Under the pieces are notes generated by a model. The model was not told the DNA's origin. It ran no database searches and saw only the letters and a list, made by a program, of their open reading frames with translations. From the NCBI RefSeq assembly GCF_003337735.1, contig NZ_QPJY01000001.1, positions 550,650 to 614,649 of the forward strand: 64,000 nucleotides of DNA, in the 5' to 3' direction. This DNA is from Thioalbus denitrificans (GTDB lineage Bacteria > Pseudomonadota > Gammaproteobacteria > DSM-26407). Positions 1,846 to 23,439 of this stretch are shown here, piece after piece; the first letter of the stretch is position 1; each line of letters opens with the position of its first letter. Both the position numbers and the translations under genes were made by a program.

Positions 1846-4800
1846 TCAGCCCCGCGGGTGGAAGACCCGGTAGGTGGCGGGGACCAGCAGCAGGCTCACC
1901 AGCAGGGAGAAGGATAGGCCGGAGACGATGGTCACCGCCAGGGGCTGGAGCAGCTCCGAGCCCTCGCCGACGCCCAGCGCCAGGGGCAGCATGCCCATCA
2001 CCGTGGTGAGGGTGGTCATCAGGATCGGGCGCAGGCGCAGCCGGGCGGCTTCCACCAGCGCCTCGCGCACCGCCAGCCCCCGCCGGCGCAGGATCTCCAC
2101 GTATTCCACCAGCACGATGGCGTTGTTCACCACGATGCCGGCGAGCATGATGAGGCCCAGCCACACCGGCATGGACAGCGGCAGGCCGCTGATGCGCAGG
2201 CCCAGGGCGGCGCCGATGGCGGCGAAGGGCACGCTCAGCAGGATCACCAGCGGATTGCGCAGCGACTCGTACTGGACCGCCATCACCACGAACACCAGGA
2301 ACAGGGCCAGGCCGAGCAGCAGCCCGGCGGTGGTGCGTCCCGCCTGCAGGGCCTCCAGCGTACCGCCCTCGTAGGCGCTGTAGCCGGGCGGCAACTCCAG
2401 CTCCGCGGCGGCCGCCTGCAGCCGCAGTGCGGCCTCCCCGAGGGTCACTTCCCCGTCCGGCGCCGCGGTCACCTCCACGATGCGCTGCTGGTTGTCGCGC
2501 CGGATCTCGGCGGGCGCGGCCACCAGCGTCACCTGTGCCACGTCACCCAGGTAGACCGGTGGGCGATCCCCCCCGGAGGGGAACAGCAGGATCTCCTCCA
2601 GGTCCGCGGGGTTGCCGATCTGCGCCCGCGGCAGGCGCAGCCGAACGTCGAAGCTGCGGTCGCCGTCGAGGTAATCGGTGACCACCTCGCCCTCCAGGGC
2701 GCGGCGCACCGCCTTGCCCACCTCCGCCACGTCCAGCCCCAGGGCGGCCGTGCGTTCGCGGTCCGGTACCACGGCCACCTCCTGGCGCACGCTCTCGGTG
2801 GAGCTCTGCACGTTGCGCAGGCCCGGCACCCGCGTCAGCCGCTCCACCGCGGTCTCGGCCAGTCGCTCCAGGACGGCCAGATCCGGGCCCTGGATGCGGA
2901 GGCTGAGCTCGTCGCTGCCCCGTCCCAGGCTGATGCCGCGGATGCCCTGGGTGCGCAGGAACACCCGCAGGCCCGGCAGGCGCAGGGCGTCGATCTCGCC
3001 CTTGACCCGGCGGATCCAGGCCTCGCTGCTCAGGGCCCGCCGGGTGCGCGGTACCAGTTGTACCTGGAGGCTGGTGCGGTTGCTGGCCTCGAACTGGGAG
3101 CGGCCGAAGACGAAGCCGCCCACGGTGGCGAACACGGTCTCCACCTCGGGCTGGGCCAGCAGCAGCTGCTCCACCCGGGTGGCGGCGCGATCCATCTCCT
3201 CCAGCGAGGCGCCGGGATCGGCGGTCAGGCTGATGCGGATGCGGCCGTCGTCGAGCTCGGGCAGGAAGGCCTGGCTGCCGGAGAGGAAGGTGCCCGCGGT
3301 GACCCAGAGGGCCGCCAGGAACACCAGCCACGGCAGCCAGGGAAGGCGCAGGGCGAGGCCCACCGTGCGGGCATAGCCGCGGCCGAGCCGGTCCATGAGT
3401 CCGTCCATGACGCGGCGCAGAGCCCCTTCGGATCGGGCCGGCACCCGCGCCGAGAGGGCCGGCACCAGGGTCAGGGCCACCACCAGCGAGGCGACGATGG
3501 CGGCCGAGATGGTGAAGATCAGCTCCCGGAAGATGAGACCCACCAGCCCGCCGATGAACAGGAACGGCAGCACCGCCGCGAGGTTGGTGGTGGTGGAGGC
3601 GACGATGGCGCCGTTGACCTCGGCGGCCGCTTCGGTTCCCGCCTGCTCGGGACTCTCTCCGGCGCGCTGGTGGCGGACGATGTTCTCCAGCATGACGATG
3701 GTGTTGTCCACCAGCATGCCCACCCCCAGGGCGAGGCCGCCGAGGGTCATCACGTTCAGCGTCAGGCCGCCCAGCACCATGAGCACGAAGGTGACCATGA
3801 TGGCGATGGGGATGGCGCTGCCGATGATGAGGGTGCGGCGCACGCTGCCCAGGAACAGGTAGACCACCGCCATCGCCAGCAGTGCGCCGCTGGTCGCCGC
3901 CAGGGCGGCGTTGTTGACGGCGGTGCGCACGAACACCGCCTCGTCGCCCACGGGCGTGATGGTGACATCCGCCGGTATCAGGTCCTCGGCGCGCAGCCAC
4001 TGCAGGCGCGCGTGGACGGCGTCGGCCACCGCCACCGTGTTCGCCGAGGGCTGCTTCTGGATGGAGAGCTTGATGCCGGGAATGTCGTTGAGGCGGATGC
4101 GCAGCCGCTCGTCCTGGTGGGTATCCACCACTTCGGCCACTTCCGCCAGGTGGACCGTTTCTCCGCCGGGCAGGGGGATGGGCAGCGCCGCCAGGGCGTC
4201 GAGACTCTCCAGCCGCCCGGCCGTGCGGCCCGACAGCTCGCTGCGGGCCATCTCCAGCCGACCGCCGGGGGTTTCGCGGTTGCCCGCCTGCAGGGCATCC
4301 ACGAGGTCGTCCAGCGACAGCCCCAGCGCGCCCAGGCGGCGCGGGTCGGGCAGCACCTGGACCTCGCGCACCAGGCCGCCGCCCACCTCGGCGGCGGCCA
4401 CCCCGGGCAGGGTCAGGAACCACTTGGCGAAGGTGTAGTCCACCCAGCTGCGCAGCTCCACCGGGTCGCGCAGGGTGGAGCTCACCACGAACTCCAGCAC
4501 CGGAATCTGCGAGGGATCGCGCTTGTAGATGGTGGGCGGCTCGATGGTGTCGGGCAGGAAGCGCTTGGCCCGGTCGAGCCGGGTGCTGGCGTCGCGGAGC
4601 GCCCGATCGATATCGGTGCCGTAGGCGAAGGAGAGGTCCACGGCGCTGCGGCCCTCGGTGGTGGTCGACTGCACCGCGATGGCGTCCTCGGTGATGGCCA
4701 GCTGCTCCTCGAGCTGGCGGGTCACCTGGTCCTCCATCACCTCCGGGGGCACGCCGGGGTCCACCACCCGCACCCGCACCTCGGGGTAGATGATGTGGGG

Positions 4801-4935
4801 CAGCAGGTCCACGTTGAGCCGTCCCAGCGCGAAGCCGCCGAGGACGATCACGGCCAGGGCGAGCATGCTGACCCCGACCGGGTGGCGCACCGACCAGGCG
4901 GCGAGTCCTCCGCCCACGCCGCGGCCGGCGCTCAT
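1846..4935 (-). CDS. RND-family efflux permease (inner-membrane pump)
   Basis: Proton-driven inner-membrane pump of the resistance-nodulation-division superfamily, 1029 aa, normal for the family. TM1 lies at about 16-36 (VGVSMLALAVIVLGGFALGR). The first porter domain follows and then the TM2-6 block with the proton-relay motif GVGMLVDNTIVMLENI in TM4. The second half repeats the pattern and ends with the TM8-12 block (LSMPVWLGLIMLAGIVVNNA; LRPILMTTLTTVMGMLPLAL). VDN in place of the AcrB VDD is common in HAE-type pumps related to SwrC. The gene overlaps the adaptor gene by four bases (ATGA), so the two are translationally coupled. No outer-membrane factor gene is present, so a TolC-like partner must be encoded elsewhere. 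Substrate cannot be told from the sequence. Confidence 0.93.
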   Translation of the reverse strand: MSAGRGVGGGLAAWSVRHPVGVSMLALAVIVLGGFALGRLNVDLLPHIIYPEVRVRVVDPGVPPEVMEDQVTRQLEEQLAITEDAIAVQSTTTEGRSAVDLSFAYGTDIDRALRDASTRLDRAKRFLPDTIEPPTIYKRDPSQIPVLEFVVSSTLRDPVELRSWVDYTFAKWFLTLPGVAAAEVGGGLVREVQVLPDPRRLGALGLSLDDLVDALQAGNRETPGGRLEMARSELSGRTAGRLESLDALAALPIPLPGGETVHLAEVAEVVDTHQDERLRIRLNDIPGIKLSIQKQPSANTVAVADAVHARLQWLRAEDLIPADVTITPVGDEAVFVRTAVNNAALAATSGALLAMAVVYLFLGSVRRTLIIGSAIPIAIMVTFVLMVLGGLTLNVMTLGGLALGVGMLVDNTIVMLENIVRHQRAGESPEQAGTEAAAEVNGAIVASTTTNLAAVLPFLFIGGLVGLIFRELIFTISAAIVASLVVALTLVPALSARVPARSEGALRRVMDGLMDRLGRGYARTVGLALRLPWLPWLVFLAALWVTAGTFLSGSQAFLPELDDGRIRISLTADPGASLEEMDRAATRVEQLLLAQPEVETVFATVGGFVFGRSQFEASNRTSLQVQLVPRTRRALSSEAWIRRVKGEIDALRLPGLRVFLRTQGIRGISLGRGSDELSLRIQGPDLAVLERLAETAVERLTRVPGLRNVQSSTESVRQEVAVVPDRERTAALGLDVAEVGKAVRRALEGEVVTDYLDGDRSFDVRLRLPRAQIGNPADLEEILLFPSGGDRPPVYLGDVAQVTLVAAPAEIRRDNQQRIVEVTAAPDGEVTLGEAALRLQAAAAELELPPGYSAYEGGTLEALQAGRTTAGLLLGLALFLVFVVMAVQYESLRNPLVILLSVPFAAIGAALGLRISGLPLSMPVWLGLIMLAGIVVNNAIVLVEYVEILRRRGLAVREALVEAARLRLRPILMTTLTTVMGMLPLALGVGEGSELLQPLAVTIVSGLSFSLLVSLLLVPATYRVFHPRG

Positions 4936-5996
4936 GGCGTCTCCCCGACCGGCTCCACGGACATGCCGTCCTTCAGGCCCAGGAAGCCCTTGGTGACCAC
5001 CCGTGCACCGGCATCCAGTCCCTCCAGGATGCTGACGCGGGCGCCCAGCCGGGTCCCGGTGCGCACCTCGGCCCGGTGGGCGACGTTTTCATCGTCCAGG
5101 CGGAAGACGTACTCGCTGCCGCGATCCTGCTGCAGGGCCGTCAGGGGGATGCTGAGGGTGGTCAGCGCCGGAATCTCGAGGGTCACCCGCGCCAGCTGGC
5201 CGGCGCGCGCGCCCGGCGGGACCGGCTCGATGGTGATCTCCACCGTGCCGAGCCGGGTGCTGGCGTCCACCTGGGGATAGATGCGGCTGATGTGGCCGGC
5301 ATGGGCTTCGCGGCCCAGGGCGTCGATGAGCACCCGCACCTTCTGGCCGAGGGCCAGGTGGGGGAGCAGCAGCTCGGAGACGGAGACCTCGGTCACCAGG
5401 GAGCCGGGGTCGATCAGGGTGAGCAGGTGGGTATGGCGCGGCACGGCGTCGCCCGGCTCCACCAGGCGGGCGCTCACCACGCCGGCGAACGGGGCCCGGA
5501 TGACCATGTAGCCGAGCCGGGTGCGCAGCAGCGCCTCCTCGGCGCGCGCGACTTCCACCGCCGTGGCCGCCCGCGACACCTCGTCCTCGGAGACCATCTG
5601 CCGCTCCACCAGCCGCCGCAGCCGCTTCAGGTCCTGCTCCGCCTGGGCGCGGGTGGCGACGGCGCGCTCAAGCTCCGCGCGCAGCAGCGCATCGTCCAGC
5701 CGCGCCAGCACCGCGCCCTGCTCCACCCGGTCGCCCTCGTAGAAGGGCAGCTCGATGATCCGTCCCTCCTCCTGGTTGAACAGGCGCACCTGGCGGCGGG
5801 TGCGCAGGGTGCCGGTGCGGGTGCTGGCGTAGGGCAGGGGCGCGCGGCTGACCTCACCGGCGGCGACCAGGTGGGTGGCGGGCGGTGCTTTCTTCGGTGC
5901 CGGTTGCGATGTCCCCCCGTCCTGCGAGCAGGCCGTGGCGAGAAGGGAGGAGAGGAGCAGCAGCAGGGGCGGCAGGGCGCGGAGTCGTGGCTTCAT
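4932..5996 (-). CDS. RND efflux periplasmic adaptor (membrane fusion) lipoprotein
   Basis: Periplasmic adaptor linking the RND permease downstream to an outer-membrane channel. The 354-aa protein begins with a lipoprotein-type signal (LLLLLSSLLATAC), predicting lipidation at C23; the -3 residue is Ala rather than the usual Leu. Next come a barrel-sandwich/lipoyl half (EGDRVEQGAVLARLDDALL), a helical hairpin (about residues 105-145), the second lipoyl half (VIRAPFAGVVSARLVEPGDAV) and beta-barrel and membrane-proximal domains. This is the standard HlyD/AcrA order. It is followed with a 4-base overlap by the pump gene and preceded, about 90 bases away on the same strand, by dtd. Confidence 0.92.
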   Translation of the reverse strand: MKPRLRALPPLLLLLSSLLATACSQDGGTSQPAPKKAPPATHLVAAGEVSRAPLPYASTRTGTLRTRRQVRLFNQEEGRIIELPFYEGDRVEQGAVLARLDDALLRAELERAVATRAQAEQDLKRLRRLVERQMVSEDEVSRAATAVEVARAEEALLRTRLGYMVIRAPFAGVVSARLVEPGDAVPRHTHLLTLIDPGSLVTEVSVSELLLPHLALGQKVRVLIDALGREAHAGHISRIYPQVDASTRLGTVEITIEPVPPGARAGQLARVTLEIPALTTLSIPLTALQQDRGSEYVFRLDDENVAHRAEVRTGTRLGARVSILEGLDAGARVVTKGFLGLKDGMSVEPVGETP

Positions 5997-17895: not shown

Positions 17896-18393
17896 CTACC
17901 ACTCCACCGTGATTGTCAGCCGGTCCTCGTAGTATCCCACCGCGGCGTTCTGGCCGGGGGGCAGGCGGGCATGGACGGTGAGCACCGCCGGCGTGTTGCG
18001 GGTCACCTTGCGCAGCCACACGGTCTCGCCGATGCCCGTGCCGTCGCCCCAGATCCGGGTGGTGGCCGGATCGACGAACAGGTTGTAGGCCAGGCGCTCC
18101 TCGCCACCCACCCGGCGCAGTTCCCGGGGCAGGAAGCCGCCCGATACCGCGCTGGGACCGATGCCGACGGTCACGTCCGGCGGCGGGGCGAGGTCGCAGT
18201 CGATGGTGATGCTGGCGCTGCTGGCGGCGCCCGCGGGATCGAAGGGGTCGTAGCTGCCGAAGGCGATGCCGCCGACGCTCACGCCGCAGGCGCCGGCCGG
18301 CGCCAGGCCCAGGAGCAGGATGACTCCCCCCGCCGCCGCGGCGACGCGGCGCCGGCGGGTGCGCGGCGGCCGCTCAGCGCTCGGGTGCGTCAC
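17896..18393 (-). CDS. SCPU-domain fimbrial subunit (last gene of the pilus locus)
   Basis: Secreted fimbrial subunit of the spore-coat-U/Csu type. After an Arg-rich signal peptide (VAAAAGGVILLLGLAPAGA) the mature part begins CGVSVGGIAFGSYDPFDP, the typical SCPU opening, with a second Cys in ITIDCDL that would form the disulfide. The C-terminal strand (YYEDRLTITVEW) is the donor-strand-like end. 165 aa. The start overlaps the usher gene by 20 bases. In Csu-type loci the gene after the usher often encodes the tip adhesin, but this one is short and single-domain, so its exact role (tip or minor subunit) is open. Confidence 0.85.
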   Translation of the reverse strand: MTHPSAERPPRTRRRRVAAAAGGVILLLGLAPAGACGVSVGGIAFGSYDPFDPAGAASSASITIDCDLAPPPDVTVGIGPSAVSGGFLPRELRRVGGEERLAYNLFVDPATTRIWGDGTGIGETVWLRKVTRNTPAVLTVHARLPPGQNAAVGYYEDRLTITVEW

Positions 18394-20695
18394 AGCGAAC
18401 CTCCCCCAGCTCCAGGACCACCTGTTCGGTGGCCGGTATTTCCAGCAGGAAGTCGCACCCGCCGGCGGGACCCTGGTAGCGGCCGCGGTGGCGCCCGGGG
18501 GCGATCCCCTCCAGGTAGAAGCCGCCGTCGCGCAGGGTGATGGCTTGCAGGGGCTCCGACGCCTCTCCGAGGGTGACGGTGCCGTGACCGGCCGGCGTGC
18601 CGTCGGACCTGAGCAGCCGTCCCGCCACTGCCCGTACCCGGCGCAGGGGGAAGTCCACCAGCACCCCGCCCCGGTGGGGCGGGGCCACGTGCCGTTCGCG
18701 GGTCGCGAAGGCGTAATCGAGCGGGATGTCCCGCCCGTCGATGGTCACGGCGTTGTCCAGGTAGCCGCTGAGATCGGGCAGCGGCAGGAGGCCCCGGCTG
18801 TCGGTCCGTCCCACCGCCTGGTGGTTGAGGGAGACGCGGACGTTTTCCAGCGTGCCCACCCGCACCAGGGCGAAGGCGTCGTGGATGGGGCGCGTCAGCA
18901 CGGCGTGGCCGTCCGCCCACGCCAGCGCCCCGGCCCCCCGCAGCCGCCAGCTGTCGCCACCACCCGCGCCGCCTGTGCGCAGCTCCCCGCTCAGGATTCC
19001 GCGCCGTCCGTGCCAGCGGGCGTAGGGGGAGAGGGCCACCTCCCCGGCGTCGTGATCCATGGCGAGGCGATAGCCGAACCCTTCGCCGGCCGGTGTGGGG
19101 CGGGTGACCTGCAGGCTCTGGCGCCCGCCGTCGCCGTCCTGCTGGTGCTGGAGGCTGACGTTCCGCCGGCCGCCGGCGTGGAGGCTCAGGCCCAGGAACA
19201 GGCGCGTGTCGCTGCCCGAATCCGGGTCGCGGCCGCGGCTCAGGGTGGTGAACAGGCTCAGGCGTCCCCCCAGCGTGCGGCTGTAGGTGAGGCTGTCGGT
19301 GCGGCCTTCCCCCCCGTCATGGTCGCGCTGCTCGGCATGGCTCAGGCCCAGGTTGCCGAGGCCGGGAAGGTGGGTGCCGATGCTCGCCTCCAGGCGCCGG
19401 CTGGGGCGATCGGACGCGCTGCCGTGGGTGCTGTTGGCGTAGGACGCCGCGTAGGTTTCCAGGCGCAGCCCGGCATTGAAGCGGCGGGCCTGGTAACTGT
19501 AGCCGAGCAGGCCGGCACCGCCGGCGGCGGCGCCCGGGATGCCGCCGGCGGCGCCGGCCAGGGTGGCGATGCCGAGGCCGCCGGGCAGCCGCAGGGTGAG
19601 CTCGGGCCCGGCGTTCCAGAACCCCTCCCCGGCCTCGCCCCGCAGGCCGGCGGTGAGATCGTCGCTGACGCCGTAGCGGTGGTAGAGGGCCGCGGCCGGA
19701 GCGCCATAGTCCGCGCTGCGGCTGCCGAACGCCTCGCGCTGCAGGCCGGCGGCGTAGCCGTACTCATGCAGGCCCGCGGCGAGGAGGGAATCGGTGAAGT
19801 AGTAGGCGCGGGTCAGGAACTGTTCGCGGCCGAAGGCGTCGCGCACCAGGACCTGGACGTTGCGGCTGCCGCCGTAGTAGTCCAGCCCCTCGAGCTCGAA
19901 CGGCCCCGCCCCCAGCTCCTCGCTCCTCACCCGCACCCCGTCCAGGTAGATCTCCACCTCCGCGGGCGAGGGGAGCACGCCGCTGAGGCGGGCGGTGGGA
20001 TTGCGCACGAAATAGGGATCGATGGCATAGACCTTGGTGAGGCTGACACCGCCGAGATTGAGCGTGCCGCCCAGGCTCCCGGAGTCGGCGTAGTGGTCGC
20101 CGAGCACCAGCCGCTGCAGTTGCTGCGGGCGATCCCGGACCAGTCGCGTCATCAGGCGCAGGGGACGGCCGCCGGCCCGGCGCTGATCGCTCAGCAGGAG
20201 CCAGCCGCCGCGGCGCACGCCGAGCTCCAGGTCCAGGTCCCGGCTCGATCCGCCGTCCCCCCCCTGGAGGCCGGCGCCGTAGTTGAGAAAGGCGCTGTCG
20301 CCGCTGAGGGGCTCCAGGTCGGCGCGCCTGGGCGTGCGGAAATCGAGGCGCCGGACCGGCAGCCGCTCCGGGGGGAGCACGATGTCCAGGGTCAGGGTGG
20401 CGGTGTCGAAGGCGACCCGGGACTCCGGCAGCGCGGAAAGATCGATCCATGCGTCTGGCTCCGGGCTATGGCCGCTCCCGGGCGGGAGGGGGCCCAGGCC
20501 CAGTTGCAGGAAACTCGCCGCGGGCACCAGGAATGTCCCCTGCGGGGTGCGCAGGGCCGGGAGTTCGCCGCGGCCCTCGCCGTTCACCCTGACCGCCACC
20601 AGCATCATCTCGCCGGGGGGATCCGCCGCCCGGGCCGGGGCCGCGAGGCAGAGCAGCAGGCACAGGGCCCAGGGCAGGGGGGCGCTGCGGCTCAT
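18374..20695 (-). CDS. Fimbrial outer-membrane usher (Csu/SCPU type)
   Basis: Beta-barrel usher that assembles and secretes chaperone-bound subunits. 773 aa, on the short side (FimD is ~840 mature). A signal peptide (LPWALCLLLCLAAPARA) is followed by the N-terminal domain binding chaperone-subunit complexes and the 24-strand barrel with plug domain (SGVLPSPAEVEIYLDGVRV; GAGPFELEGLDYYGGSRNVQ). The barrel ends with NAVTIDGRDIPLDYAF, then C-terminal domains (RLLRSDGTPAGHGTVTL). The start overlaps the chaperone stop by four bases. All pilus genes are on one strand, so it is one operon. Confidence 0.92.
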   Translation of the reverse strand: MSRSAPLPWALCLLLCLAAPARAADPPGEMMLVAVRVNGEGRGELPALRTPQGTFLVPAASFLQLGLGPLPPGSGHSPEPDAWIDLSALPESRVAFDTATLTLDIVLPPERLPVRRLDFRTPRRADLEPLSGDSAFLNYGAGLQGGDGGSSRDLDLELGVRRGGWLLLSDQRRAGGRPLRLMTRLVRDRPQQLQRLVLGDHYADSGSLGGTLNLGGVSLTKVYAIDPYFVRNPTARLSGVLPSPAEVEIYLDGVRVRSEELGAGPFELEGLDYYGGSRNVQVLVRDAFGREQFLTRAYYFTDSLLAAGLHEYGYAAGLQREAFGSRSADYGAPAAALYHRYGVSDDLTAGLRGEAGEGFWNAGPELTLRLPGGLGIATLAGAAGGIPGAAAGGAGLLGYSYQARRFNAGLRLETYAASYANSTHGSASDRPSRRLEASIGTHLPGLGNLGLSHAEQRDHDGGEGRTDSLTYSRTLGGRLSLFTTLSRGRDPDSGSDTRLFLGLSLHAGGRRNVSLQHQQDGDGGRQSLQVTRPTPAGEGFGYRLAMDHDAGEVALSPYARWHGRRGILSGELRTGGAGGGDSWRLRGAGALAWADGHAVLTRPIHDAFALVRVGTLENVRVSLNHQAVGRTDSRGLLPLPDLSGYLDNAVTIDGRDIPLDYAFATRERHVAPPHRGGVLVDFPLRRVRAVAGRLLRSDGTPAGHGTVTLGEASEPLQAITLRDGGFYLEGIAPGRHRGRYQGPAGGCDFLLEIPATEQVVLELGEVRCDAPER

Positions 20696-21438
20696 GGCCC
20701 GCAGAGCGACCGGTCAACCGGTATCCGATCCTCCAGGGTGAGCGCGTCGCTGCGGACCGTGACCCGAACCTGGTCCAGCTCCGCGCACTGCCCGGAGGAG
20801 AGCGCCAGGCGGTAGTCGCGGCCGCGCCCGGGCAGGAGGTACCAGCCGGGCAGGCGCTGCTCCAGTCCGGCGCCCTCGAACACGACCTCCTCGAGCCGCA
20901 GGTGGACGTTGCCCGTGTTGCGCACGTGGACGAGCAGGTCGCCGGATGGCGTCTGCCCCGTCTCCAGGGTGGCGGCCGGAGCGGGTGCGGCCGGCGCCAC
21001 GAAGACCGGCACGCCGAAACGGATGGCCAGGCTTACCCGGGCGCCCCCGTTCCGCGCCGGCGGCGTCACCTCCTCCAGGTAGAGGCGGTAGCTCCGCTCC
21101 ACCGCCCCGGGCGGCTGGCGCAGGCCCACCCGCACCACCTGCCGCGCCGCCGGGGCGAGCGAAACCACCCGGGGGAAATAGATCAGCGCATCGCTCGGCT
21201 CATAGCGGTCACCGCCCGCCTCGTCCTGGCTCCAGGCCTTGAGGGTCAGGGCCAGGTCGAGGGTCGCGCGGCCGTTGTTGGTGACCGTGACCGCCGCCGA
21301 GCGGGTGGCGGGGTCCAGGTCGAGGCGGATGGGGGCGACGGCGAAGTCGCCCGCCGGCGTCGGCGCGGTACACGCCAGCAGCCACAGCCCGGCGAGCAGC
21401 CGGGCCGTGGCCGGAGATGGGTGGCGACGGGTGGGCAT
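20692..21438 (-). CDS. Periplasmic pilus chaperone (PapD/CsuC type)
   Basis: Two-domain Ig-fold chaperone that completes fimbrial subunits by donor-strand complementation. 248 aa with a signal peptide (LLAGLWLLACTAPTPAG), the first domain opening FAVAPIRLDLDPATRSAAVTVTN, an A-strand region with Arg, and the conserved G1 edge (ALIYFPRVVSLAPAARQVVRVG) used for subunit binding. The second domain follows (SLAIRFGVPVFVAP). It lies between the SCPU subunit gene (44 bases before) and the usher (4-base overlap). Confidence 0.9.
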   Translation of the reverse strand: MPTRRHPSPATARLLAGLWLLACTAPTPAGDFAVAPIRLDLDPATRSAAVTVTNNGRATLDLALTLKAWSQDEAGGDRYEPSDALIYFPRVVSLAPAARQVVRVGLRQPPGAVERSYRLYLEEVTPPARNGGARVSLAIRFGVPVFVAPAAPAPAATLETGQTPSGDLLVHVRNTGNVHLRLEEVVFEGAGLEQRLPGWYLLPGRGRDYRLALSSGQCAELDQVRVTVRSDALTLEDRIPVDRSLCGP

Positions 21439-21482: not shown

Positions 21483-21956
21483 TCAGGGATTGATCTCCAG
21501 GGTGACGGTATCGGAGTAGGCGCCGGCGGTGGCCTGCTCGTAGTCGGTCTGGGCCACGCCGCCCTCGTAGGTGAGGGTCAGGGTGGACAGGGGGCCGTTG
21601 CCGGTGCCGCTGGCGCCGCCGGTGAAGGCGAAGGTGTAGGGCAGGTACTCGGTGATGCCGGCGTCGTCATGCTCCATGCGCTTGGTGCCGGTGTCGTCGT
21701 AGAGTCCGCCACGGTCGGTGATGGTATAGCTCACCCCCTTGGTGCACCAGAAGTCGACGGCGCCGGTCTGGGTCACGTCGCCGCCCATGGCCGGATCCAG
21801 GTCGCCGAAGGCGAGGGTGCCGGTGGAGGTGAACTTGCAGGTGCCCACCACGTTGGCCGAGACGCTGACGGTGGTCTGGTCGCTGGCCGCGTGGGCGGCG
21901 GGGGAGAGGAGCAGGGTGGCCAGGGTGAGGCCGGAGAGGAGTCGTGCCTTGCGCAT
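21483..21956 (-). CDS. SCPU-domain major fimbrial subunit
   Basis: Likely main pilus subunit: 157 aa with a signal peptide (SGLTLATLLLSPAAHA), mature start SDQTTVSVSANVVGTCKFTS, a Cys in GTCKF and a second in VDFWCTKGVSY for the disulfide, and the C-terminal strand YSDTVTLEINP. All fit the spore-coat-U fold. First gene of the chaperone-usher set in transcription order. The upstream region (22000-22090) is notably AT-rich compared with its surroundings and probably holds the promoter. Confidence 0.9.
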   Translation of the reverse strand: MRKARLLSGLTLATLLLSPAAHAASDQTTVSVSANVVGTCKFTSTGTLAFGDLDPAMGGDVTQTGAVDFWCTKGVSYTITDRGGLYDDTGTKRMEHDDAGITEYLPYTFAFTGGASGTGNGPLSTLTLTYEGGVAQTDYEQATAGAYSDTVTLEINP

Positions 21957-22216: not shown

Positions 22217-23311
22217 TCAGAGGGGGAGGATGCTGAGGGTGACGGGCCAGGGATACTCGCCCGGGGGAGTTCCCGGCGCCAGCGCGAAGCGGTAGCCGGG
22301 TCGGATCTCGATTGCTGCACGGGGATCGGCGGGGGGGCGCAGGAGCGTGCCGCCGGCGACGGCGAGGGCGACATCCGGGCCCAGGCCGCGGATCACCACG
22401 CCGGTGAGGATTTCGCTCCGCCCTTCCACGACCAGGGCATAGCCGCGGGGCGAGTTGCTGCGGATGGAGAGCCGGGAGATGCCGTCCACCTCCACGTAGC
22501 CGCGCGCCGCGTCGACGGCTGTCACGTGCAGGCTCGAGGGCTGGGCGAGTACCTCCAGGCGTGCGTAGGGCAGTACCCGCGCCGACACGCTGACGCCGCC
22601 CTCCGCCCCGCCGGCCGCGGCTGCGGTGCCGGGCAGTCCCGGGCCGAGGGCGAGCAGCGCCGCCACCGCGGCGGCCATCAGGCCCCGCTGCAGGCGCAGG
22701 CCCTCGGCAATGGTCCGCGGCGTGGCGTAGCCGGCGTCGATGAGCACCTCGCCCAGGGCGCGGCCGGTTCCGACCTGGCGGGCGAGGGCGGCATCGAGCT
22801 GTCCGGTGGTGATGGCGCCGAGCAGCACGAGGATGCGGCCCAGGCGCAGGGGTCCGGGGCCCGGCGGCGTGCGCCCGAGCTGCCGCTGCAGGGACAGCAG
22901 CCGCTCCAGGGCCGGCTCCGCGATCCAGCCCCGCCGCACCGCGATGCGGCCCAGGCGCGCACCGGTCCGCTCCTGTTCGGCGAGGGCATCCTCCAGCTGC
23001 GCGGGCGTGATGCACCCGCCCGCCAGCAGCAGGACACCCAGCGGTTCGCGGGGGCCGGCGGCGGTGGCCAGGATCCGCTCGGGGGAGGAGAGCGCCGATT
23101 GCAGCTCCAGGGCCAGCTCGAGGGTCGCCGGGTCGAGGAAGCCCATCTCGCAGAGCAGCGCGCCGAGGCGGACCGCACCGGCTTGCTGCCGCGCCAGGGC
23201 CGAATGCAGCTGGTCCGTCGTGACGAGGCCGGCATCGAGCAGGATCCGTCCGATGCGGGGGGCGGCCGTGCGTGCCGGTCCGCCGCCGGGGCGCGGTGCC
23301 TGCCTGGTCAT
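22217..23311 (-). CDS. Triple MshEN-like (c-di-GMP-type) domains, internal signal segment and beta-rich domain
   Basis: 364 aa from the ATG at 23311, chosen because GGGAGG stands six bases upstream. Residues 19-208 hold six copies of a 24-residue motif R-x-G-x2-h-h-x2-G-h-h-x4-L-x3-L-x2-Q: 19-42, 48-71, 90-113, 119-142, 156-179 and 185-208. They pair up with exactly five-residue spacers (43-47, 114-118, 180-184), which is the layout of the MshEN domain that binds cyclic di-GMP in MshE-type ATPases. Copy 3 lacks the Arg and copy 6 is degenerate. No ATPase domain follows. Instead residues 209-235 look like a signal peptide inside the protein (hydrophobic LMAAAVAALLALG, then an AAAA cleavage-like site). 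The last ~128 residues (VSVSARVLPYARLEVL onward) are beta-rich and cysteine-free, with an SCPU-like opening. It lies directly before the chaperone-usher operon. Role inferred only. Confidence 0.75.
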   Translation of the reverse strand: MTRQAPRPGGGPARTAAPRIGRILLDAGLVTTDQLHSALARQQAGAVRLGALLCEMGFLDPATLELALELQSALSSPERILATAAGPREPLGVLLLAGGCITPAQLEDALAEQERTGARLGRIAVRRGWIAEPALERLLSLQRQLGRTPPGPGPLRLGRILVLLGAITTGQLDAALARQVGTGRALGEVLIDAGYATPRTIAEGLRLQRGLMAAAVAALLALGPGLPGTAAAAGGAEGGVSVSARVLPYARLEVLAQPSSLHVTAVDAARGYVEVDGISRLSIRSNSPRGYALVVEGRSEILTGVVIRGLGPDVALAVAGGTLLRPPADPRAAIEIRPGYRFALAPGTPPGEYPWPVTLSILPL

Positions 23312-23439
23312 GGATCCCTCCCTATGCGGATCGCCCCGGCCCGTCGGAGCGACTGCTGATACTTTAGACCATCGGCAGGGGCCGGGGATGGGCAACCGGT
23401 TGCTGTCCGCTCACGCCGGGGGGTGTGAATGCGCCGGGC

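Follow-up and report, generated by a model that had tools for sequence, protein, structure and literature searches.

How might a c-di-GMP receptor come to be joined, within one polypeptide, to a signal peptide and an exported domain, directly ahead of a pilus operon? The question was raised by a gene in the window (the whole 64,000-nucleotide stretch of Thioalbus denitrificans DNA that was analysed), for which a first-pass annotation had proposed three MshEN-like domains joined through an internal signal peptide to a pilin-like domain. We consider here the reading that its product, P0001, is a c-di-GMP-sensing preprotein whose pro-region is coupled to a Sec signal peptide and gates export of the pilin-like domain, a reading that we place a little short of an even chance.

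Three MshEN domains in P0001

The reading frame was as first annotated: window:22217-23311:- translates into 364 amino acids without a stop. Its features are as follows, where A1 denotes a profile of the last MshEN domain plus signal peptide made from seven seeds.

22217..23311, minus strand: P0001, 364 aa, MshEN (three copies), internal signal peptide and predicted exported domain (open frame; Shine-Dalgarno; GC3 high throughout)
23316..23322, minus strand: Shine-Dalgarno-like GGGAGGG, four bases upstream of the ATG (sequence read)
23099..23257, minus strand: MshEN domain 1, residues 19-71, both halves matching the published consensus (NF053729; motifs)
22886..23044, minus strand: MshEN domain 2, residues 90-142, first half beginning with P instead of R (best stretch for NF053729; PilF/MshE PDB matches)
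22688..22846, minus strand: MshEN domain 3, residues 156-208, second half beginning with A instead of R, Gln208 last (NF053729; A1 profile)
22619..22687, minus strand: putative internal Sec-type signal peptide, about residues 209-231, with RG, the core LMAAAVAALLALG and PGLPGTAA (hydropathy, Ala-x-Ala sites; A1 profile; model)
22220..22618, minus strand: predicted exported cysteine-free beta domain, residues 232-364 (homologue L043:2707-3078, 39%; top Foldseek and VIA rows pilin-rich, weak)

The proposed MshEN identity held. The NCBIfam model NF053729 (MshE-related c-di-GMP motif; cut-off 38 bits) matched three stretches of P0001 with an E-value of 3.7e-44, Pfam placed DUF4388 over residues 85-141 only, and the closest PDB sequences were the c-di-GMP-binding N-domains of PilF and MshE. 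The full-length model (mean pLDDT 69.9) superposed on 5htl (MshE with c-di-GMP) over 50-54 residues at 0.6-0.9 A and with a probability of 1.00; the corresponding Foldseek E-values were weak (0.16-0.25) because the model is multi-domain. The ATPases MshE, PilB, GspE and PilF carry the same 53-residue c-di-GMP site, but they are cytosolic, have no signal peptide after MshEN, and their A1 matches end before or at the start of the signal peptide; Pfam and NCBIfam searches gave no match to an ATPase domain in P0001.

Six 24-residue motifs (residues 19-42, 48-71, 90-113, 119-142, 156-179 and 185-208) form three pairs, each with a five-residue spacer. Their positions and spacers were exactly those first reported, but the arginine said to open every motif is replaced in motif 3 (P90) and motif 6 (A185), so that domain 1 is the one intact in both halves. 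A loose form of the pattern occurs five times in the real protein, the sixth motif failing for a Cys only, and in 20,000 shuffles of residues 1-208 it had a mean of 0.0012 per sequence and a maximum of one.

By sequence and fold, these domains appear to be c-di-GMP receptor domains, and P0001 itself would be expected to bind the ligand. They might alternatively form a constitutive folded leader that does not sense c-di-GMP, for example an anti-folding or membrane-targeting aid, as the deviations at position 1 of motif halves 3 and 6 would allow and as the case of XpsE, an MshEN that has lost binding (PMC5013675), illustrates. The intact domain 1, the published binding of c-di-GMP by PA3740, and the GGDEF matches in all six carrier genomes tested (12-33 in each; 32 in the source genome) argue against such a leader, which we consider unlikely.

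The signal peptide at the end of the last MshEN helix

Gln208 is the final ligand-binding residue of domain 3, and the sequence directly behind it is RGLMAAAVAALLALGPGLPGTAAAAGG: basic at first, then hydrophobic over a short core, interrupted by Gly/Pro and provided with Ala-x-Ala sites. The signal-peptide-like segment of the first-pass annotation was thus recovered at residues 209-231, with RG before it and Ala-x-Ala after it. In the AlphaFold model, a single continuous helix (residues 198-221) takes in both the hydrophobic core and the last helix of MshEN, and P0001, which is one of the seven A1 seeds, scored 97.6 bits against A1 in a match reaching model position 79. The signal-peptide call, here and in the relatives, is based on hydropathy and Ala-x-Ala features. 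In all relatives examined, the terminal Gln of the last MshEN motif leads directly into the signal peptide, which has a short h-region and Ala-x-Ala; the features of a cleavable Sec signal (basic n-region, h-region of 7-15 residues, small residues at -3 and -1) were found in all members shown, and Ala-x-Ala was retained in nearly all PA3740 orthologues.

The main rival to gated export is that P0001 is an uncleaved, single-pass inner-membrane receptor with cytosolic MshEN domains, a permanent anchor and a periplasmic output arm, signalling inside-out like LapD and perhaps retaining pilus subunits or chaperone or letting them go. Its topology would be identical, the modelled helix is unbroken across the junction, and LapD is an established inside-out receptor for c-di-GMP. 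LapD/LapG likewise tie cytosolic c-di-GMP reception to events beyond the inner membrane; however, LapD is a stable membrane receptor made of other domains, whereas the segment in P0001 looks cleavable and the exported part varies among relatives. Furthermore, in most members the uncharged stretch is just 11-15 residues long, and a conserved c-region with Ala-x-Ala comes after it, as in cleaved signals, and polymerisation would be impossible for an anchored pilin. The short cores and conserved Ala-x-Ala sites favour a cleaved signal peptide, and we regard the permanent anchor as possible but doubtful.

An artefactual or neutral fusion of two adjacent genes would also place a signal peptide inside a protein, and an ATG does occur within the frame, at residue 212, preceded by a G-rich stretch. 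The GC3 of 22217-23311, however, is uniform and stays high across the junction, and the occurrence of the same junction with different domains in many other genomes refutes a fusion artefact for the family. In several members there is no start codon close to the junction, which argues against such a fusion and for which reason internal re-initiation was also rejected as a general explanation. We consider a fusion of this kind extremely improbable.

The C-terminal domain

The domain that a cleaved signal peptide would release lacks Cys, and the AlphaFold models show it as rich in beta structure, as had been described; a weak fold match suggests that it may be pilin-like. In a two-sequence model (pLDDT 68), CfaB, FimA, the pilin domain of PapG and PsaA were among the best matches, all of them weak: the best by Foldseek was CfaB (E 6e-3, TM 0.34), and VIA gave Z of 5-6 to FimA, PsaA and others. 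No match to SCPU (PF05229) was seen up to E 10 with the HMMER filters on, and comparison with pilins by hhalign was not significant. We call the domain pilin-like on this weak evidence of fold and do not call it a pilin. The only homologue of the domain found in 369 genomes was a relative in genome G120; other matches (E 0.004-0.009) were set aside, as those read sit in non-coding-looking frames. The sole homologue of P0001 itself (L043) is partial, its N-terminal part lying beyond the contig end.

The neighbouring chaperone-usher operon

Pfam matches confirmed that P0001 is encoded upstream of an SCPU-type chaperone-usher operon on the same strand:

21483..21956, minus strand: SCPU pilin with an ordinary N-terminal signal peptide (Pfam SCPU 4.8e-14)
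20692..21438, minus strand: PapD-like chaperone (Pfam PapD_N 1.9e-11)
18374..20695, minus strand: outer-membrane usher (Pfam Usher 4.4e-27)
17896..18393, minus strand: second SCPU protein, possible tip subunit (Pfam SCPU 7.2e-20)

The P0001 gene is separated by 260 bp from the downstream SCPU pilin gene, which opens the order pilin-chaperone-usher-second SCPU, and the gene upstream of P0001 ends 128 bp ahead of its ATG. A scan for promoters and terminators around P0001 and the pilus operon recognised none. The pilin-chaperone-usher-pilin genes are those of SCPU/Csu-type operons, whose pilins, in contrast to P0001, bear ordinary N-terminal signal peptides; to our knowledge, a gene headed by MshEN is no part of any described operon of this type. 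The sister genome G001 has, on a short contig, an SCPU-chaperone-usher set with no MshEN gene ahead of it, but this says little on linkage because its usher is distant (29%).

Recurrence of the junction on unrelated exported domains

We searched 369 genomes of the class and 398 of the phylum, plus families, with carrier frequencies being lower bounds because the large scans score a limited number of candidates per genome. Among the 369 gammaproteobacterial genomes, at least seven proteins matched A1 through the signal peptide, and nearly all other MshEN matches ended before it. As six of the seven full matches were themselves seeds, the independent gains were the protein of genome G093, the Pseudomonadaceae and family f185. 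In the Pseudomonadaceae, carriers were found in at least 46 of 178 genomes, in 6 of 19 genera; these and f185 came from the phylum and family searches. With A1, the junction was thus traced to several families of Gammaproteobacteria. An apparent match across the junction in L011 (G013) was excluded, since the frame holds a TGA, and L006 and L007 proved to be ordinary MshEN ATPases and not MshEN-signal proteins.

All-against-all comparison divided the exported parts into six groups with no mutual similarity:

Group 1: the pilin-like domain of the window
Group 2: a pilin in G138
Group 3: a class A beta-lactamase-like serine hydrolase, in G039 and G026
Group 4: a weakly FilA/DUF6160-like domain, in Pseudomonadaceae, f185 and G008
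Group 5: an FN3/Ig protein, L005
Group 6: a short domain, in G213 and G093

The second MshEN-signal-pilin gene, in G138, lies in a gammaproteobacterial family other than that of the window:

L038:5322-6131, minus strand: MshEN-signal-pilin gene, directly before a PapD-like chaperone (4547-5239) and a CS1-type usher (1966-4503)

Beyond its signal peptide, this protein shares 34% identity (E 3e-21) with an ordinary pilin encoded nearby, whose own signal peptide is N-terminal; two ordinary pilin paralogues lie further on, on the opposite strand, and the usher has the TcfC and CooC_C domains of the CS1 type. MshEN-signal units thus precede chaperone-usher genes twice, with two usher classes (SCPU in the window, CS1 in G138). 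The co-occurrence with ushers that had been suggested is real in these two cases and is not general: most relatives carry non-pilin domains, the loci read showed no usher next to them, and the window's usher had no match in the carrier genomes G213 and G008.

The remaining loci differ in what follows the signal peptide. The serine hydrolases are encoded at L044:8682-10286 (minus strand) and L045:8675-10054 (minus strand). At L041:9490-10059 (minus strand) and L052:1471-2037 (plus strand), only about 100 residues follow, ending in VRAKFNF or VRAKFRF, whose terminal aromatic might suggest an outer-membrane fate. In the deltaproteobacterial MAG relative L005 (278-3797, plus strand), three MshEN domains and the same junction precede FN3 and bacterial Ig-like domains and a C-terminal stretch that we read as dockerin-like; its gene follows a PrsK/PrsR-like pair of kinase and regulator, and a PEP-CTERM protein is encoded close by, a possible exosortase-linked context.

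PA3740 of Pseudomonas

The Pseudomonadaceae loci are flanked by an NhaP-type antiporter and an acyl-CoA thioesterase, which we take to be the neighbours of PA3740 in P. aeruginosa. The assignment of these loci to PA3740 rests on these neighbours and on its published c-di-GMP-binding peptide. PA3740 has been described as a swarming motility protein that binds c-di-GMP, with an MshEN domain and a second, uncharacterised one (PMC5013675), and the binding peptide was mapped as LKKALKKQTNLR (PMC8789108). This peptide corresponds to the final part of the last MshEN helix together with the signal peptide's n-region and hence spans the junction (compare L078, LAKALKKQTNLRLTATLVAALLSPFQMASAD). As in P0001, a Sec-type signal peptide comes immediately after MshEN in this family and leads into an exported domain; unlike P0001, there is one MshEN unit instead of three, the weakly FilA/DUF6160-like exported domain is unrelated to that of P0001, and the neighbours are not an usher.

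The first-pass annotation knew of no described protein with this layout. PA3740, whose orthologues share it, is a described c-di-GMP binder, so that the claim is right in part; we found no mention of the internal signal peptide of PA3740 in the literature; the term 'signal peptide' is absent from the main text of PMC5013675. In NfrB and the other fusions treated there (REC, HD-GYP, CheA, CheX, cyclase, kinase), MshEN is likewise a regulatory add-on, but the partners are cytosolic or enzyme domains, and the text of PMC5013675 that deals with them lists no exported partner behind a signal peptide. PA3740 (here loci L078-L081 and L097-L123) has been labelled a PilZ protein (PMC8335546) or PilB (PMC9765702), both of which clash with the MshEN-signal layout; its deletion in a high c-di-GMP strain did not reduce biofilm (PMC8335546).

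Conservation of the signal peptide

A signal peptide that serves as a plain export tag is expected to evolve fast. We compared 28 distinct PA3740-type orthologues from related species of Pseudomonadaceae, a family outside the window's lineage, and found mean pairwise identities of 0.880 in the signal peptide, 0.744 in MshEN and 0.728 in the exported part, with the signal peptide exceeding the exported part in 370 of 378 pairs. For the one control gene, DsbC (exported in the ordinary way, encoded in the same 18-kb stretches and similar in overall divergence), the signal peptide was at 0.635 and the mature part at 0.750, the signal peptide being the more conserved in 70 of 351 pairs. Since fourfold sites in the signal peptide (0.567) were no more conserved than those of MshEN and the exported part (0.566 and 0.683), the constraint acts on the protein, and an RNA-level constraint on this stretch was not supported. 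The f185 pair agreed (signal peptide 25/25, mature 0.69) and the G213/G093 pair did so mildly (0.77 and 0.60), but the distant serine-hydrolase pair disagreed (0.47 and 0.50).

Such conservation could also suit a membrane signalling helix in an uncleaved receptor. It is compatible, too, with the cleaved MshEN-signal stub being the working part, a membrane-tethered c-di-GMP binder whose exported domain is a separate product of one precursor, because in the PA3740 family conservation is higher in the signal peptide than on either side of it. If the stub alone mattered, however, the recurrence of unrelated exported domains would be pointless, and we think this quite unlikely.

A model for gated export

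Gating of Sec entry by c-di-GMP would be the simplest mechanism, because the helix and signal form one piece, the n-region lies within the mapped peptide and the constraint on the signal peptide is unusual. The three MshEN domains of P0001 would act as a cytosolic pro-region that binds c-di-GMP, with the last binding helix continuing into the n- and h-regions of the Sec signal peptide, and ligand at this helix would alter, in whichever direction, the freedom of the signal peptide to engage SRP, SecA or SecYEG. On export, signal peptidase I would cut at Ala-x-Ala, freeing the pilin-like domain into the periplasm, where it may encounter the chaperone and usher of the adjacent operon, and the MshEN part would remain in the cytosol with the signal peptide.

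The MshEN-signal module may act likewise on other exported domains, including those of the PA3740 family. In that case, it would be a portable, messenger-gated signal peptide, through which an MshEN pro-region directly controls the Sec export of any attached domain post-translationally; we advance this tentatively, at appreciably below an even chance. The observation made at this locus was confirmed, and its interpretation was supported in part, for the MshEN domains, the internal signal peptide, the exported C-terminal domain and the position upstream of a chaperone-usher operon; c-di-GMP gating of pilus assembly is a conjecture, and the more general reading is that of a c-di-GMP-sensing pro-region attached to the signal peptides of varied exported proteins.

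Implications

N-terminal predictors ignore signal peptides beyond residue 70, and the present reading, if true, would give annotators grounds to seek them there. The recurring sensor-signal unit suggests that c-di-GMP can control whether particular proteins leave the cell. c-di-GMP is known to act on surface proteins through transcription, through ATPases and through the protease switch of LapD; a signal peptide with a receptor domain attached would, if true, be a different control point, the export decision for a single protein, and would provide a testable mechanism for the unexplained PA3740.
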